Part shown: piece by piece, positions 9,733 through 41,623 of the stretch
Position numbering within the stretch: the first letter of the stretch is position 1
Layout: every line of letters begins with the position of its first letter
Assembly: GCA_938011245.1 (NCBI GenBank)
Contig: CALLUJ010000064.1
Coordinates: 1 to 42,946, forward strand
Reading direction: 5' to 3'
From: an uncultured Aquimarina sp.
Lineage (GTDB): Bacteria > Bacteroidota > Bacteroidia > Flavobacteriales > Flavobacteriaceae
Length of the DNA stretch: 42,946 nucleotides
The notes under the pieces: generated by a model
What the model was told of the DNA's origin: nothing
Seen by the model: only the letters and a program-made list of their open reading frames with translations
Database searches by the model: none
Position numbers and translations under genes: made by a program

Positions 9733-12700
9733 CTACTCTAAATACTTTTTAAGAATAGCTTCTTTCTGTTTGGGTATTTCTGCTATTTGTTTTTCTAATG
9801 TGTCTATTTCCTTTTCAGTCTTTTCAATTTCAGATATTATTTTTTCTTGTTCCTTAATTGGTGGTAAAGGGATTTTTATTGAAGACAACAACCCTTGATT
9901 CAAGCTTTTGATATTAGAACCTTTACTGTCGGTTGTTAATTTATTTCGGACAATATCAGTTTTTAAATAATGACAAAGGAATTTAGAATTAACTTCTTTT
10001 GAGTTAACTCTAATTCTAATTGTAAAGCCTGAAAAAGAAGTTTTATCTTTTAATTCATTTATGTATAAAAATCTACCGACTAATCTAGCTGAACCATTTG
10101 ACCTTACAACTAAAATATCTTTAGGTTGTAATTCATAATCTTTATTTAAAGAGCCTTCAATTTGATTTTTTTCGAGTTTATCTAATTTAGGAGAAAAATC
10201 ATCTTTAAAATCACCAACACCAATTATCGTGACTAATTCTCCAGAGCTTTGGCGATTGTAATTCAAACCATTTTTGAAAACAGCAATATTTCCTAAAAGT
10301 AGATTTTTATGTTTTAACTGATTGAAATTTGAAAGCATCCTACTTCTTTGTAATTTAATACTCTCAATAGCTTTTTTTTCTTTGCTTTCTAGTTTCTCTA
10401 TTTCAAAAACTAGTTTTTCTTGTATATTTTTTGGGGGAATCGGTATTTTTATATTTCTAAAATCAGTTTTTTGTAAATGTTTTAAACCAACTCCTGCAAA
10501 ATAAAATTCATTAATTGAATCAATAATGTTTTCTAAAAAATAGAAAATATATTTTGTTTTGATATTATTTTCATTTTGACTATTTATAACAAATGTATCA
10601 GTAGAATAACTAGCTTTTCCATTATAATACTTTACAATAGCGTTTCCTCCAGTTGATAGAAATATATTTTCTTTTTCAACTAAATATTCATTGTATTTAA
10701 AAGTTTTTTCTCCACTTGTAAAAAAAATGAATTCACCATTTTTAGAATCTTTTGCTGTTCCTACTTTTATTTTTGATTTAGGTTGTTCATCTATAATATC
10801 TCCAATATTTACTTTATCCCATTTACTTTCAATTTTTACTTTTTTTTTAGTAGAAATCGAAATGTTTTTCTCAAAATCAACTCGGTCAAAAGTTAACATA
10901 TCAACCAAGTTTTGATAAGTTACATTCTCTTTTAGATTGTCTTCAATTTCTAAATTAAAGTTTCCATTAAAAGCATTATAAATATAGGTACTTGCTTTTT
11001 CTGGGTTTTCAAATGTAGTCGCATCATATAATTGTGTACAATCGTCTATTGTTTTACTACGTTGTATTGGGTGAATACCTTCGCTTCCTCTACGATTACT
11101 AAATTCATATCCTAAAAACGCTTTTTCTTTATTCTTTTCACCTGTTTTAATTAAAACTACTTTTTGTTTAAGTGTAATAATAAAATAGAGTAATTTATCT
11201 TGTTCTAAAGCTAAAATATTCGTCCATTTTTCTTGCTCATTTTTAGCTTTTACTTTTTTATCATATTCTTGATAAATTTCGTGATTTTTAATTGCTTCAT
11301 TCGGTGATTTTTGTAATAAGGTTTTATAATCGTCAAACGAAATGTTTTCCCAAACATGAGCAATATATTTTTGTAATGGATTTTCTATTCCGTTAATAGT
11401 AACATCTTGTAAATTAGTGAATAGTTTTTTTACTGCTTCTTCAATATTAAAAGCATCTGCATTATTTCTACGTTTTAAAAATAAGGTAACAGTATTTGTT
11501 CCTGTTGCCATAAACGTATTAGATCCCATTTCTGTAATGGCTAAAATGTCAAAATATTTTAAAATTATTTCTCTTGTTTGTGTATAGATTCCTGTATTAC
11601 TTAAAATACTACTTGGTAAAATAATGCCAGCAACTCCTCCATCTTTTAAAAGTTGTTTTGTTCGTTCAATAAACAAACATTCTATTTCACTGCTTTGGTC
11701 GGTTAATCTGTCATATAAATAAAAAGCTTTTTTTGATTTATCTTCATTCATTTGTCCTTTAAAAGCAGATACAGAATAAGGAGGGTTTGAAATAATAACA
11801 TCAAATTGTTTATTGTCCTGAGGATAGGTTTTATCTGTTTCTGTTAGTAAATCTTTAAATTGGGTAGAAGTAGAAAAATCTCCCAAGCCATCTCCGTGAA
11901 TCACTTTTGCTAAACCGTCTCCGTGTAAGTAACAACTTACTTTGGCTGTTTTTACTAAACGATAATCTTTTTCAATTCCATAAACATAATCTTCAGCCCA
12001 ATCAAATTGGTCTTCTTTCCATTTTTTTATGGCTCTTTTGGTTGTAGGATTAAATTTACTTTCATCTAAAGAATCAATATATTTTTGGACTTCTTCCATT
12101 GATTCCGTAATAAAATGTCCACTTCCAGCAGCGTAATCAATTATAGTAGGTAGTAAATCATTTTTATTTCCTTCTTCAATTTTTTTATCTGTAATTTCTG
12201 GAAAAGGAAGACTTTTAATAATAAAACGGGCAATTGGAACAGGAGTAAAGAACTGACCTGACTCTTGCTTTAACCCAGTTGTTAAAAGTAATTCAAAGAA
12301 ATCACTTAAAAATTGTTGACGATAATTATATCGAATTTGATATACTTGAAGTAATTCGACAACCTCTTTTACAACCTTTGCATTTTCTTCAAAAGAAGCA
12401 TCATCATAAACTTCTTTAATTGCAAATTCATTATTCTTTTTTAAACGAATTTCGGTTAATATTTCTTTGAATTTATCTTTGTATTGTTCCTCAACTTGTA
12501 GAAATTGTTTATCAAATTCTGAATCACTTACATCAGTAACTTTCTTTTCTAAAAGTTCTAACATTCCTCTATTGTAAAGGTCAGTTAATCTTTTTTGAAA
12601 AGAAATATGATTGTCTTGTCCTTCAATCCATTGAAAGTGGAGTTGTTCATCTTCATTTCTATTTTCGTCTACTATTTTACACAAAAAAAGAGTGAATATT

Positions 12701-13443
12701 TTATTAAAAGCATTTGGTTTGTCAGAAACTACATTATGCCTTAAAATTTCTAAAAATCGATTAAAAATATGACTACTGTCTTCTTGTTTTAAAACTTTTA
12801 AATCATTCCACGTTAATGCCTTACTTTTAAATTCATAAGGAGTCGTCCAACTGTCAAAAACACCATTCGTTTTTGGTTGCTTATTCCAACGTTCAAATAA
12901 ATCTTTTACGTTACCAGTTTGTCTGTAATCTTCTTCAATTTTTACAATTTCGTTTCTATATTGAACTTCTTTGTTATTCAATTCAGAAGCATACAACATA
13001 ATAATATCTGCATTCTTATCTTGTTGAAAATATGTAAATAATTGACCTCCGTTTTTATGAAGATTACTTAATTCCTTTTCATATTCTTTTCCCCAAGTTT
13101 TACATTCTATCATTAAGTATGCAGAACCATCATTTCGAGTAACTAAAACATCTAAACGCCCACTTGTTCCATGACCAGTTTTCCAAGTTTTTTCTAGTGT
13201 AATATTTTGAGGTTTATACCCTTTTTCAAGTAATCTATTTACACATTCTAAAACAACCCAGTTTTCAGCTTGTGAAAAATTTTGTGTCGTTTTACTTTCA
13301 GCAGTTATTTTGTTACCAAAATTGAAAAGTTCTTTTTCAAAATCAATTTCAATAGCATATTTTCCATATTTCTTTTGAAATATTCCAGAAGTATTTTCTT
13401 TAGGTGTAAATCCTAATGTCTGTATGAGTTTTTTATATTTCAC
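9733..13443 (-). CDS. Single-chain restriction-modification enzyme, type IIB/AloI-like (nuclease - N6-adenine methylase - two specificity domains)
   Basis: 1236 residues. An N-terminal PD-(D/E)xK nuclease domain of HsdR_N type carries GRLDVLV (Asp98) and IECKTW (Glu113, Lys115). The HsdM-like gamma-class N6-adenine methylase has SGQFFTP (395-401), motif I DYAAGSGHF (436-444) and motif IV NPPY (553-556). Two HsdS-type target recognition domains (about 875-1035 and 1050-1200) each end in IPIPP or IPLPP plus a coiled coil. Size and order match the AloI group of type IIB enzymes, which cut on both sides of a split site. The start is GTG; no in-frame ATG lies upstream. There is no helicase and no separate R, M or S gene, so it is self-contained. 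The recognition site cannot be read from sequence. Confidence 0.9.
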   Translation of the reverse strand: MKYKKLIQTLGFTPKENTSGIFQKKYGKYAIEIDFEKELFNFGNKITAESKTTQNFSQAENWVVLECVNRLLEKGYKPQNITLEKTWKTGHGTSGRLDVLVTRNDGSAYLMIECKTWGKEYEKELSNLHKNGGQLFTYFQQDKNADIIMLYASELNNKEVQYRNEIVKIEEDYRQTGNVKDLFERWNKQPKTNGVFDSWTTPYEFKSKALTWNDLKVLKQEDSSHIFNRFLEILRHNVVSDKPNAFNKIFTLFLCKIVDENRNEDEQLHFQWIEGQDNHISFQKRLTDLYNRGMLELLEKKVTDVSDSEFDKQFLQVEEQYKDKFKEILTEIRLKKNNEFAIKEVYDDASFEENAKVVKEVVELLQVYQIRYNYRQQFLSDFFELLLTTGLKQESGQFFTPVPIARFIIKSLPFPEITDKKIEEGNKNDLLPTIIDYAAGSGHFITESMEEVQKYIDSLDESKFNPTTKRAIKKWKEDQFDWAEDYVYGIEKDYRLVKTAKVSCYLHGDGLAKVIHGDGLGDFSTSTQFKDLLTETDKTYPQDNKQFDVIISNPPYSVSAFKGQMNEDKSKKAFYLYDRLTDQSSEIECLFIERTKQLLKDGGVAGIILPSSILSNTGIYTQTREIILKYFDILAITEMGSNTFMATGTNTVTLFLKRRNNADAFNIEEAVKKLFTNLQDVTINGIENPLQKYIAHVWENISFDDYKTLLQKSPNEAIKNHEIYQEYDKKVKAKNEQEKWTNILALEQDKLLYFIITLKQKVVLIKTGEKNKEKAFLGYEFSNRRGSEGIHPIQRSKTIDDCTQLYDATTFENPEKASTYIYNAFNGNFNLEIEDNLKENVTYQNLVDMLTFDRVDFEKNISISTKKKVKIESKWDKVNIGDIIDEQPKSKIKVGTAKDSKNGEFIFFTSGEKTFKYNEYLVEKENIFLSTGGNAIVKYYNGKASYSTDTFVINSQNENNIKTKYIFYFLENIIDSINEFYFAGVGLKHLQKTDFRNIKIPIPPKNIQEKLVFEIEKLESKEKKAIESIKLQRSRMLSNFNQLKHKNLLLGNIAVFKNGLNYNRQSSGELVTIIGVGDFKDDFSPKLDKLEKNQIEGSLNKDYELQPKDILVVRSNGSARLVGRFLYINELKDKTSFSGFTIRIRVNSKEVNSKFLCHYLKTDIVRNKLTTDSKGSNIKSLNQGLLSSIKIPLPPIKEQEKIISEIEKTEKEIDTLEKQIAEIPKQKEAILKKYLE

Positions 13444-22254: not shown

Positions 22255-22332
22255 TAATTTTAACTAATACTTTTTATTTAATATAACCTTATTCTTAATA
22301 ATTTTAAAAATAATATATAAGAGGAGAATTCA

Positions 22333-22370
22333 AGTTATGATATAAAAATTTTTATTTTTATATCATAACT
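22333..22370. repeat. Perfect 16-bp inverted repeat (hairpin)
   Basis: AGTTATGATATAAAAA (22333-22348) pairs exactly with 22355-22370 around a 6-base loop. The arms end in A- and T-runs on the two sides, so it could be a bidirectional terminator. The nearest upstream leftward gene ends 660 bases away, which makes that role uncertain. Confidence 0.55.
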
Positions 22371-22783
22371 AAAGATAATACATATATGCATTAGAAAATC
22401 TATTACAGTATAGGATTACTTAAAAAACGAACACTTTGTTGCACTTTTTAATTTTACCATAGTAATGCTATAATTAAATTGAGATGCACTCGTTTTTAAT
22501 GTGTTTCCAAACCTTATAACGAAGTTCTAATATTTAATATGGATTAAAAATTTAGAAGTAAACAATATGTTTATAAATGTATCATAATATTATAATACTA
22601 TGTAAAGAAAATGTTAATAACTATAGTAAGTTTTTTTGTTTTTTAAAATTGATTTTTCAATACAATTATAATTATAAACATTCCAAATTTTAATATAATT
22701 TTCGTTTCACTAATTGTTCAACTTTAAAACCGCTTTTTAAACATTAAAAATAATATGTTTATTTCAAAAAAATACATTTAATG

Positions 22784-22809
22784 TTGTTATTAACAACTGT
22801 TAATAACAA
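22784..22809. repeat. Perfect 12-bp palindrome with 2-bp centre, possible protein-binding site
   Basis: TTGTTATTAACA, then AC, then TGTTAATAACAA, which is its exact reverse complement. The very short centre argues against an RNA hairpin and for a dimeric DNA-binding protein. It is about 530 bases upstream of the bio-linked operon. Half-sites resemble BirA or DnaA sequences only loosely. Confidence 0.5.
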
Positions 22810-23033
22810 TACACTATTCTATGTTTTTCAGTACTTTAATAGTATAATAACTTGTTAATTAATTTATAAAAGACATATAAAACAAGAATACACAAATTTT
22901 AACTTTAAAAGTTATACCGCTATTCACAAGCTATAATAACACTCATTATTTTTTTTAAATTTTAAAAAGAAAAGAATTATAATTAAATATATGTTTATAA
23001 CAAAATAATAAAGGCTAACTAAACATTTTAAAA

Positions 23034-23276
23034 CTAAACTATTCTAAGATGACTTCGATTATTTTTTAATGATTCTATAATAGTTATTGTTTGTTGTACA
23101 GCATTAGGATGTACTACGAGTTCTATACCTCCTAATGCGTTAGAATAAAAAGGGGTAATACTTATCATAGTTTCATTTTTAAAAAAGAAAGGAATCTTAG
23201 CTTCTAGTAATAAATGTTTTAATACAGAATATTCGTGAGCATAAGTAAATCGTGCTACTAAAACGTAATCTTTCAT
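23034..23276 (-). CDS. DUF2007 family protein
   Basis: 80 residues with the single DUF2007 (putative signal-transducing) domain: an N-terminal strand VARFTYAHEYSVLKHLLLEAKIPFF, then NALGGIELVVHPNAVQQTITII, which is the GGIxLxVxxxDxxxA pattern. The molecular role of this small fold is not established. It is divergent from rnr. Confidence 0.8.
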   Translation of the reverse strand: MKDYVLVARFTYAHEYSVLKHLLLEAKIPFFFKNETMISITPFYSNALGGIELVVHPNAVQQTITIIESLKNNRSHLRIV

Positions 23277-23388
23277 AAAATAAATGTTACTTTTTTATGA
23301 ATAAAAGATAAGAATTTAACTTCATTTAATTAGTCTTAGGGTTAAATTCTAAATATTAGCTGTACTTTTAGCTAAATTCAAAAGTAAA

Positions 23389-38243: not shown

Positions 38244-38666
38244 ATGATAAGCTTTAATTTTATTGAAGTAAAGGAAGACTTTGATGTATCTAAATTTACT
38301 AAATGGTTACAGAGAGTCTCAGAATCGGAAGACAAAAGGATAGGTAATATAACATATATTTTTTGTTCTGATGCTTATTTATTAGGTATAAACCAACAAT
38401 ATTTAAATCACGATACTTATACCGATATTATAACTTTTGATAATTCTATTGGGAATTCTATAAGCGCCGATATTTTTATATCTGTAGATCGTGTTGTGGC
38501 AAACGCAATAGATTTTGAAGTATCGTTTGAGGAAGAATTGAAGCGAGTTGTTGTACATGGTATCCTTCATTTGTGCGGTTACAAAGACAAGACAAAAGAA
38601 GATGCTACTTTGATGCGGATTAAAGAGGACGAAAAAATTAGAATGTTCCACGTGGAACAGGATTAA
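38244..38666 (+). CDS. ybeY: Endoribonuclease YbeY (rRNA maturation)
   Basis: 140 residues. YbeY is a metal-dependent RNase acting in 16S rRNA 3' maturation and ribosome quality control. The motif reads HGILHLCGYKDKT (about 109-121): the first two histidines of the HxxxHxxGYxH metal site are present, but the position usually holding the third His is Asp. The last residues MFHVEQD are encoded by a 16-bp parS-like palindrome (38644-38659). It is coupled to the DUF4175 gene and lies upstream of mnmG. Confidence 0.93.
   Translation: MISFNFIEVKEDFDVSKFTKWLQRVSESEDKRIGNITYIFCSDAYLLGINQQYLNHDTYTDIITFDNSIGNSISADIFISVDRVVANAIDFEVSFEEELKRVVVHGILHLCGYKDKTKEDATLMRIKEDEKIRMFHVEQD
38644..38659. promoter_or_regulatory. 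parS-like palindrome 1, inside the ybeY coding end
   Basis: TGTTCCACGTGGAACA, a perfect 16-bp palindrome. The Bacillus-type parS (ParB/Spo0J site) is TGTTTCACGTGAAACA, so the core CACGTG and arms agree except for two symmetric substitutions. It encodes the YbeY residues MFHVEQ. Confidence 0.75.
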
Positions 38667-38717
38667 TTCTTTTAAACTTAAGAGCTCTATTTTAATGAAA
38701 ATCTATTTTTCTATTTG

Positions 38718-38725
38718 TAGCTTTG
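38718..38725 (+). promoter_or_regulatory. Putative -7 promoter element of mnmG
   Basis: TAGCTTTG matches TAnnTTTG and lies 51 bases before the mnmG ATG, between two parS-like sites. No convincing -33 element. Confidence 0.35.
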
Positions 38726-38752
38726 TAAAATAGTTACTAATTATTATTAATA

Positions 38753-38768
38753 CGTTCCACGTGGAACA
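38753..38768. promoter_or_regulatory. parS-like palindrome 2, just upstream of mnmG
   Basis: CGTTCCACGTGGAACA. The inner 14 bases (38754-38767) are a perfect palindrome identical to site 1. It lies 8 bases before the mnmG ATG. Confidence 0.75.
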
Positions 38769-38776
38769 TTCAATAT

Positions 38777-40648
38777 ATGTTTGGACAAGAATACGATGTT
38801 ATAGTAGTTGGTGCAGGTCATGCAGGAAGCGAAGCTGCTGCTGCTGCTGCCAATATGGGTTGTAGTACATTGTTAATTACAATGAGTCTTCAAAACATTG
38901 CCCAAATGAGTTGTAATCCTGCTATGGGAGGGATTGCGAAAGGACAAATAGTAAGAGAAATTGATGCTATTGGTGGATATAGTGGAATAATTTCAGATAC
39001 TTCGGCTATACAATTTAAGATGCTTAATAAATCTAAAGGACCAGCCATGTGGAGTCCTAGAGTTCAATCGGACCGTATGCGTTTTGCGGAAGATTGGAGA
39101 TTAAAATTAGAAGCTACTCCAAATTTAGATTTTTATCAAGAAATGGTTTCGGGTCTTATTGTAGAAGGAGGAAAGGTTTGCGGAGTAAAGACTAAATTAG
39201 GTATTGAAGTTCGGAGTAAAACTGTTGTTCTTACTAATGGTACCTTTTTAAATGGACTTATACATATTGGAGAAAAACAATTTGGAGGTGGTAGGGCAGG
39301 AGAAAGAGCTGCTACAGGAATTACAGAGCAGTTAGTAAAATTAGGTTTCGAATCGGGTAGAATGAAAACGGGTACACCACCTCGGGTTGACGGACGCTCT
39401 TTAGATTATTCTAAAATGGTAGAACAACCAGGCGACGAAAAACCTGAAAAATTTAGTTATTCAACTACCACAAAAGCATTAACTAAACAAAGGTCTTGTT
39501 TTATGACCTATACTTCTTTAGAAGTTCATAATTTATTAAGAGAAGGTTTTGATAGATCACCAATGTTTAATGGGTCTATAAAAAGTCTTGGTCCTAGATA
39601 CTGTCCATCAATAGAGGATAAAATTAATCGCTTTGCAGATAAAGATCGTCATCAGATTTTTGTAGAACCAGAAGGTTGGAATACTTGCGAGGTATATGTA
39701 AATGGATTCTCTACTTCCTTGCCAGAAGATGTTCAATTTAAAGCACTGCGTTCTGTTGTAGGTTTTGAAAAAGTTAAATTCTTTAGACCTGGTTATGCTA
39801 TAGAATACGACTATTTCCCACCAACTCAATTGAAGCATACTTTAGAAACTAAATTAATTGAAGGTCTATTTTTTGCTGGCCAAATTAATGGTACTACAGG
39901 ATATGAAGAAGCAGCTTCTCAAGGGTTAATGGCAGGTATAAACGCAGCATTGCAAGTTAAAGAAAAAGATCCTTTTATACTTACAAGAGACGAAGCGTAT
40001 ATAGGAGTTTTAGTAGACGATTTAATTACAAAAGGTACCGAAGAGCCGTATCGTATGTTTACCTCTAGGGCAGAGTATAGAACATTATTAAGACAAGATA
40101 ATGCCGATTTTAGATTAACACCTAAAGCATACGTTATCGGTTTAGCTTCAGAAGCTAGATTACGCGCTATGGAAGAGAAACAAAAAAAATCTTCAGAGTT
40201 TATTAAATTTTTAAGAGAAACCAGTATTTCCGAAAAAGATGCAAATCCTATTTTGGAAAACAAAGGTTCGTCGCTAATGAAGCATAGCGATAAAATTTTC
40301 AAAGTATTATCAAGACCACAAGTCAAGCTAAAAGATTTGACAAAAGTCGATACTATTAAAACATATATGTCTAATAATAATTTAAATCAAGAAGTATTAG
40401 ATCAAGCAGAAATTCAAGTTAAATATTCAGGATACATAGAAAAAGAAAAAAATAATGCTGATAAATTATCTAGATTAGAACATGTAAAAATTCCTTCTAA
40501 TTTTAATTATAAACAATTAAAATCGCTATCATTTGAAGCCGGTGAGAAATTAGGGAAAATTCAACCTATTACTATTGCTCAGGCATCTAGAATTAGCGGG
40601 GTTTCTCCAAGTGATATTTCTGTATTGTTAGTACATTTGGGCAGATAG
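38777..40648 (+). CDS. mnmG: tRNA uridine-5-carboxymethylaminomethyl(34) modification enzyme MnmG (GidA)
   Basis: 623 residues, the standard length. With MnmE it modifies U34 of tRNAs, using FAD and folate. The FAD-binding fingerprint is [11 protein letters not shown] (11-21); further signatures are [12 protein letters not shown] (about 46-57), [12 protein letters not shown] near 197-208 and the [10 protein letters not shown](M)AGINAA segment near 375. It starts 8 bases after a parS-like site. MnmG genes often lie close to the replication origin in bacteria, which agrees with the palindromes. Confidence 0.97.
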
Positions 40649-40770
40649 TTTTGTACTGATTTTTAAACGTTCGTTTTTAAAATAGAAATCTAGTAAAGAA
40701 TACGTTTAACAATAGTAGACAAAACGATTACTTAATTATTGTAAATCAAAAATAGTAACCAACCAAAGCG

Positions 40771-40786
40771 TGTTCCACGTGAAACT
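40771..40786. promoter_or_regulatory. parS-like site 3, upstream of the methyltransferase
   Basis: TGTTCCACGTGAAACT. The left half is identical to sites 1 and 2, the right half follows the Bacillus-type GTGAAAC, and only the last base departs from TGTTCCACGTGAAACA. It lies 6 bases before the methyltransferase ATG. Confidence 0.7.
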
Positions 40787-40792
40787 AGTTAT

Positions 40793-41623
40793 ATGAAGTC
40801 AATAAAAGTAACGGATCACTCTGTTTCTCAAAAAGAGTTTGTTTTAGAGTATGATTCACTTTTTGATTGGTACAAAACCACTCCTGTACCAGAAAATATA
40901 TCCCAATATTATGAGAGCGATAATTATATTTCTCATACCGATAGAAAAAAAACAATTATAGATAAAGCATATCATTTTGTTAAAAAGAGAGCTTTAAAAA
41001 GAAAAGAAAAATTAATTTCTAATCTTATCGAAGTTTCTAATAAGTCAATATTAGACTTTGGAGCAGGAACGGGAGCTTTTTTAGAAATATTAAATAAAAG
41101 AGGTTGGCACTCTATAGGAGTAGAACCTAATGAAAAAGCTAGAGGTTTAGCAAGAGACAAAAATGCAATTTGTATGGCTTCTTCAGAAGAAATACAAAAT
41201 CATAGTTTCGATGTTATTACTCTTTGGCATGTTTTAGAACATGTACCAAATTTAAAAAAACAGTTTAAAGAATTTAGTAGATTGCTAAATACAAATGGTT
41301 TTCTAATTTTAGCGGTACCTAATTATAAAAGCTTTGATGCAAAGTATTATAAAAGCTTTTGGGCTGCTTACGATGTCCCTAGACATTTATGGCATTTTTC
41401 TGAAACCTCAATACAAAAATTAGCAGAGTCTAACGGATTCAAATTAATTAAGTCTAAACCTATGTGGTTCGATTCTTTTTATGTCTCACTACTATCAGAA
41501 AAATATAAGAAAGGAAAAATAAATTATATAAATGCTTTTGCTGTTGGATTACTTTCTAATATAAAAGCTATATTAAATAACCAATTTTCTTCAAAAATTT
41601 ACATTCTTAAAATAAAAAAGTAA
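40793..41623 (+). CDS. Class I SAM-dependent methyltransferase
   Basis: 276 residues with the Rossmann motif I LDFGAGTGAFLEIL (87-100), post-I acidic VEPN, and the motif TLWHVLEHVPN (about 142-152), the pattern of methyltransferase domain 23. A conserved AAYDVPRHLWHFSETSI region follows. No signal peptide. The substrate is unknown; relatives often methylate quinones, lipids or sugars. It follows mnmG with its own gap containing a parS-like site. Confidence 0.88.
   Translation: MKSIKVTDHSVSQKEFVLEYDSLFDWYKTTPVPENISQYYESDNYISHTDRKKTIIDKAYHFVKKRALKRKEKLISNLIEVSNKSILDFGAGTGAFLEILNKRGWHSIGVEPNEKARGLARDKNAICMASSEEIQNHSFDVITLWHVLEHVPNLKKQFKEFSRLLNTNGFLILAVPNYKSFDAKYYKSFWAAYDVPRHLWHFSETSIQKLAESNGFKLIKSKPMWFDSFYVSLLSEKYKKGKINYINAFAVGLLSNIKAILNNQFSSKIYILKIKK

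Follow-up and report, generated by a model that had tools for sequence, protein, structure and literature searches.

A probable parS centromere bracketing mnmG in an uncultured Aquimarina and its relatives in the Flavobacteriaceae

In the standard ParABS scheme, ParB loads on parS sites and ParA moves the resulting complex. The parS sites of several bacteria offer a basis for comparison. In Pseudomonas aeruginosa, parS2 and parS3 are bound by ParB in ChIP-seq, whereas sequences with two mismatches were not bound in vivo (PMC5098823). The parS consensus of Myxococcus xanthus, TGTTCCACGTGGAACG, is bound in vitro (PMC3899335). A Hi-C study of the OMM12 gut bacteria, which include Bacteroidetes, defined ori by parS clusters together with GC skew, placed ori not always at dnaA, and found no known condensin in Bacteroides caecimuris and Muribaculum intestinale (PMC10197239). 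Nearer to the organism discussed here, Ori-Finder placed oriC near mnmG, matching the GC skew, in Mariniflexile litorale and Algorimicrobium bowmanii, according to passages of the two genome reports (PMC11278836, PMC12843772); in the first of these, a figure legend has the labels of ori and ter swapped. Among the titles, abstract openings and some passages covered by our search, no report of parS at mnmG or ybeY in flavobacteria was found.

The stretch of DNA analysed here, referred to as the window, is a contig of 42,946 nucleotides from an uncultured Aquimarina sp. (assembly GCA_938011245.1, contig CALLUJ010000064.1). The features discussed are collected in Table 1. Elsewhere in the window, an ORF at 9733-13443 on the minus strand (1236 aa) has a translation resembling a DNA methylase that is linked to specificity domains, with an NPPY motif.

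Table 1. Features of the window around mnmG and upstream of rnr; assignments to parS and oriC are predictions.
Feature	Position	Strand	Remark
AT-rich gap containing the block	22255-23388		upstream of rnr
Two head-to-head DnaA-box-like words, TTATTAACAACTGTTAATAA	22787..22806	.	
Conserved oriC-like block	22901..23002	+	within the gap of the first row
AT-rich tract of the block	22949..22969	+	candidate unwinding element
ybeY, rRNA maturation RNase	38244..38666	+	C-terminal tail encoded by parS site 1
parS site 1, TGTTCCACGTGGAACA	38644..38659	.	within the last ybeY codons (encodes ...MFHVEQ...)
TAGCTTTG	38718..38725	+	fits TAnnTTTG; site 2 would then fall within the mnmG leader
parS site 2, CGTTCCACGTGGAACA	38753..38768	.	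ybeY-mnmG gap, ends 8 bp before the mnmG start codon
mnmG (gidA)	38777..40648	+	flanked by sites on both sides
parS site 3, TGTTCCACGTGAAACT	40771..40786	.	gap between mnmG and the methyltransferase gene
Methyltransferase-domain gene	40793..41623	+	downstream of site 3

An earlier note on this DNA had reported three parS-like palindromes around mnmG, at 38644, 38753 and 40771, and all three are present; the third lies 122 bp past the mnmG stop codon and 6 bp ahead of the next start codon. The core that the note described is common to all of them, but its wording has to be amended, because site 2 starts with C, which makes the shared core GTTCCACGTG(G/A)AAC. The note had seen no further copy in the 43 kb, and indeed a search at up to three mismatches returns three matches in the window; dinucleotide shuffles (n=100) give a mean of 0.05 matches, and none of them has three. 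Its expectation of few, clustered copies genome-wide was likewise borne out, as a search of the full assembly (2.99 Mb in 151 contigs, 99% complete) for the 14-bp core GTTCCACGTGGAAC with up to two mismatches hits nothing but these three sites. The reversed pattern, used as a control at the same tolerance, hits two places. What goes beyond chance is therefore the clustering and the near-perfect match, not the genome-wide count at two mismatches. Finally, the likeness to parS noted earlier stands, although the comparison with the Bacillus-type site does not give the closest relatives: the Pseudomonas and Myxococcus parS are closer in sequence.

The identity of the sites is best judged together with the proteins that would use them. 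Site 1 equals P. aeruginosa parS2/parS3 letter for letter. Site 3 differs from site 1 by two mismatches, and the lack of in vivo binding to two-mismatch sequences in P. aeruginosa counts against the centromere reading here. The ParB partition family has a single match in the genome, encoded immediately downstream of a ParA ATPase gene; the two ORFs are on the same strand, 5 bp apart, and thus form one canonical parAB operon. The ParB carries the ParB_N, HTH_ParB and ParB_C domains (N-terminal, HTH and dimerisation), and the solved chains closest to it are ParB, Spo0J and Noc proteins. The appearance of Noc proteins among these relatives gives some ground for the idea that the sites, though of parS type, chiefly serve a Noc-like paralogue in the control of division and not ParABS. 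This is very improbable, since the only ParB family match in the genome directly follows parA and since Noc sites differ from parS. The genome combines 16-bp palindromes that match a proven parS exactly or almost exactly, a three-domain ParB with a ParA ATPase in the same operon, and few sites clustered near the inferred oriC, a position on which the cruder skew measures discussed below agree less. The three palindromes are very probably the chromosomal centromere of a ParABS system, lying near oriC and detached from parAB.

Conservation was followed across the family, the class and the phylum. The motif, searched as the degenerate core GTTYCACGTGRAAC, is found in 197 of 199 family genomes, with exactly two copies in 168 of them, and, across the phylum, in 359 of 392 genomes; the same core read backwards is matched in four of the 199. 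As the search pattern fixes 12 of 14 positions, conservation of the letters alone is no evidence. A look at the region in other Flavobacteriaceae, proposed earlier as a check, puts sites at mnmG: in all 29 family loci cut around a site, the site adjoins mnmG, at 5-75 bp from its start or stop in 27 and at 423 and 472 bp downstream in two. The nearest MnmG matches include Bizionia, Olleya and Algibacter, which points to Flavobacteriaceae as the family. The 80 best loci fetched with MnmG are the closest of at least 589 and take in a few other families as well as some short contigs. A site stands at mnmG in 79 of them (both sides in 66, upstream only in 10, downstream only in three), so that a downstream site is present in 69. 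Many sites in these best 80 stand 5-17 bp ahead of mnmG and others in the upstream gap of the next gene. The one locus of the 80 without a site at mnmG belongs to Capnocytophaga (L301). The two family genomes in which the motif was not found (G004, about 90% complete, and G107, whose sequence is partly masked as N) are no counter-examples, because neither gives an mnmG match and G107 is partly masked.

Beyond the family, the comparison took in 30 loci that belong to other families in the class. Sites occur at mnmG in 23, and the remaining seven hold none of the genes of the window. All sites listed for the 23 lie on one side of mnmG, except one in L152; this locus has a parS-like site within the mnmG coding sequence, at about 2106. 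Larger clusters were also seen in some Flavobacterium loci: L249 has six extra sites about 1 kb upstream of mnmG, and L251 and L252 have six and seven sites upstream. It looks as though two-sided bracketing is a trait of Flavobacteriaceae and their nearest kin, and the tie between parS and mnmG is a wider one. A chance origin of the palindromes was considered and rejected in view of the shuffles, the whole-assembly search and the family-wide conservation.

The sites also reach into genes. In 42 loci a site overlaps the ybeY frame at its end, and YbeY ends in a tail like MFHVEQ or MFHVEH in 40 of 77 loci with an upstream ybeY, one of which (L302) is doubtful as it reads through stops. From this overlap and these tails it follows that parS encodes the YbeY tail, which in the window reads RMFHVEQD. 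In two loci without an upstream site by pattern (L256 and L283), the last residues of YbeY are FHMEQ, reminiscent of a parS-encoded tail after decay of the site. Such tails, and the Capnocytophaga locus without a site, are what one would expect if the palindromes were a mutational leftover or a product of chance, an inherited family without present function. We regard this as extremely improbable in view of the mean of 0.05 matches in shuffled sequence and of the conservation, in hundreds of genomes, of copy number, place and scarcity elsewhere.

A word fitting TAnnTTTG, which we take to be the Bacteroidetes -7 promoter element, precedes the nearest upstream site by no more than 120 bp in 21 of 73 loci. 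The controls give it in about 5% of shuffles and in 35 of 1460 coding windows, and this excess indicates that in those 21 genomes the site probably lies in a transcribed mnmG leader. The promoter-like words, and the many sites placed shortly ahead of mnmG or in the gap before the next gene, would also suit operators for local control of the ybeY, mnmG and methyltransferase genes by a regulator, a CACGTG-binding factor that would sit in the mnmG leader. However, sites also occur inside the coding part of ybeY and directly at the stop codon of mnmG, some Flavobacterium loci have clusters of six or seven upstream sites, the locus is near the inferred origin in relatives, and the identity with ParB-bound parS sites is exact. 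Control by such operators is accordingly an improbable explanation, and the centromere remains the preferred reading.

Whether the sites mark the origin region had to be addressed in relatives, as the assembly is too fragmented for a skew plot. Twenty 20-kb samples per genome were scored in three ways (four-fold-site skew, raw GC skew and gene-strand bias); the latter two disagreed with each other, and four-fold-site skew was the measure relied on. By this measure the origin range contains parS in three of four one-contig genomes, and in the fourth (G052) parS is at the edge of the range. Raw GC skew agrees with parS in G052 and is off by 0.2-0.4 Mb in G124, by about 0.4 Mb (best fit) in G148 and by 0.5-0.7 Mb in G131; the gene-strand fits, made on the same sparse samples, agree in G052 only. 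The strands on which the rRNA genes lie would fit an origin at parS. In the contiguous sequence of G052, parS lies at 359-361 kb, the strand-corrected minimum at about 376 kb (about 15 kb off) and the raw minimum at 404 kb, 43 kb from parS. Skew pooled over 12 genomes aligned on mnmG is about zero to the left of about -17 kb and positive to the right, so that the change some 15-17 kb upstream of mnmG is soft and not a clean one from negative to positive.

These results bear differently on what had been claimed earlier. The skew switch expected at the sites is seen with the four-fold-site measure in all four one-contig relatives, but the raw GC and gene-strand fits partly disagree. The suggestion of a segregation centre near oriC gains support from the scarcity and clustering of the sites and from the four-fold-site skew switch in relatives. 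The nearby parAB that had been anticipated was not found. Sites adjoining parAB are common, though not defining, for a ParABS centromere, and here parAB is on another contig; in the four one-contig relatives the parS pair lies 0.65-1.4 Mb from parB and 1.0-2.0 Mb from dnaA, distances that take the records as circular, two of the four being numbered from dnaA. Closeness of parS to parAB or to dnaA, with 0.65-2.0 Mb in between, was therefore rejected. The distant parAB is no refutation of the centromere.

Upstream of mnmG, all 11 relatives compared keep the order ybeY, DUF4175-like gene, gltX, and eight of the 11 have rnr and rpiB within 40 kb. The gap between rnr and rpiB is AT-rich (GC 0.17-0.33) and contains a block common to nine genomes, including that of the window, where it lies about 16 kb from the parS sites. 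In the window three bio-like genes, named from reading translations, and two ORFs stand between the gap and rpiB, which adjoins the gap in most relatives examined. A small ORF at 23034-23276 on the minus strand, between the block and rnr, has relatives in L206, L207 and L219 and no Pfam match. A sequence model of the block finds 115 of 119 family genomes at E <= 0.1 (102 of these 115 had no part in building it) and 106 of 119 at E <= 1e-4; the four of the 119 without a match are G020, G080, G112 and G123. In the class sample, nine of 147 genomes match at E <= 0.001, six of them of the family itself and three weak ones elsewhere. All of the 30 best block loci have rnr or rpiB beside the block, and 20 have both.

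The block is conserved and AT-rich, with a single copy that clearly stands out per genome, as would be expected of an oriC. The distance between block and parS is 3.8-62.4 kb in 20 of the 21 genomes with both on one contig, where mnmG served as a proxy for parS in two; in the other one, G114, the block match is 878 kb from parS. In G015 and G121 block and parS are on different contigs. Moved or divergent origins are possible in G114 and in the four genomes without a match. In G052 the block is at 388 kb, 27 kb from parS and between the corrected and the raw skew minimum. We infer that the block is oriC and that replication most likely starts there, upstream of rnr and about 16 kb from the sites.

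Candidate DnaA-binding words in and around the block give a mixed picture. Across the 30 best block loci TTATCCACA was counted 17 times, in every case no farther than 350 bp from the block, a result that is partly by construction because the block model ends in a box-like word. The copy in the window has box-like words such as TTATTAACA; the candidate oriC there shows no TTWTNCACA box and no TTATCCACA at one mismatch. A search for DnaA boxes by consensus found no excess in the window (seven against 6.0 expected; 11 against 12.0 at one mismatch), and no cluster of three within 600 bp was found in 440 kb of G052. A DnaA-trio array was also considered and set aside: the block has a three-base rhythm but did not fit the trio consensus.

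ParB binding, clamp loading, spreading and segregation would take place at the mnmG sites. In the scheme we propose, ParB made from the distant parAB operon would load on the three parS sites and build a partition complex that covers mnmG and its surroundings. ParA would then pull the freshly replicated DNA near the origin towards the ends of the cell. With the candidate origin about 16 kb away, the centromere would be copied soon after initiation. A ParB-SMC-ScpAB loading site would call for a standard SMC in the genome. None of six family genomes exceeded the cut-off of the TIGR02168 profile, against 10 of 14 control genomes, in a search made with that profile of standard SMC; this agrees with the two Bacteroidetes of the OMM12 study, for which no known condensin was found (PMC10197239). 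The usual link between ParB and SMC may therefore be missing or replaced. A more speculative and rather doubtful extension is that the centromere includes the transcribed ybeY-mnmG unit, with flanking ParB clamps held over or pushed by the gene, giving an SMC-independent organisation of the origin region by ParABS, which may also tune mnmG. If true, the sites would be kept at both ends of mnmG and within ybeY because the gene unit is part of the centromere.

Regardless of that extension, the analysis gives Flavobacteriaceae an easily tested map of where segregation is centred and where replication probably starts; in the four relatives measured, dnaA and the parS locus are 1-2 Mb apart. It raises the questions of how ParB-parS works without standard SMC and why the sites stay at the ends of one gene when parAB and dnaA lie elsewhere.

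Compared with known systems, the locus is a known kind of element in an unusually fixed place, and this assessment is well supported. Among the closest systems is the set of parS1-4 in P. aeruginosa, where the 16-bp site 1 has its equal in parS2/parS3 and four bound sites lie near oriC, as given in passages on these sites (PMC5098823); here, in contrast, the cluster brackets mnmG, overlaps ybeY and is far from parAB. The M. xanthus cluster shares the consensus type and a position near the origin, but the portion of the report concerned gives 22 sites near parA (PMC3899335), whereas the window has three and parA is elsewhere. Bacteroides caecimuris and Muribaculum intestinale are of the same phylum and have parS clusters; the relevant passages of the OMM12 study do not describe a position of the sites at mnmG/ybeY, or flavobacteria (PMC10197239). 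Mariniflexile litorale and A. bowmanii belong to the same family, and parS is not mentioned in the passages on their origins (PMC11278836, PMC12843772). Unlike those Ori-Finder predictions near mnmG, the block proposed here belongs to the rpiB/rnr stretch, and in the window about 16 kb separate it from mnmG.
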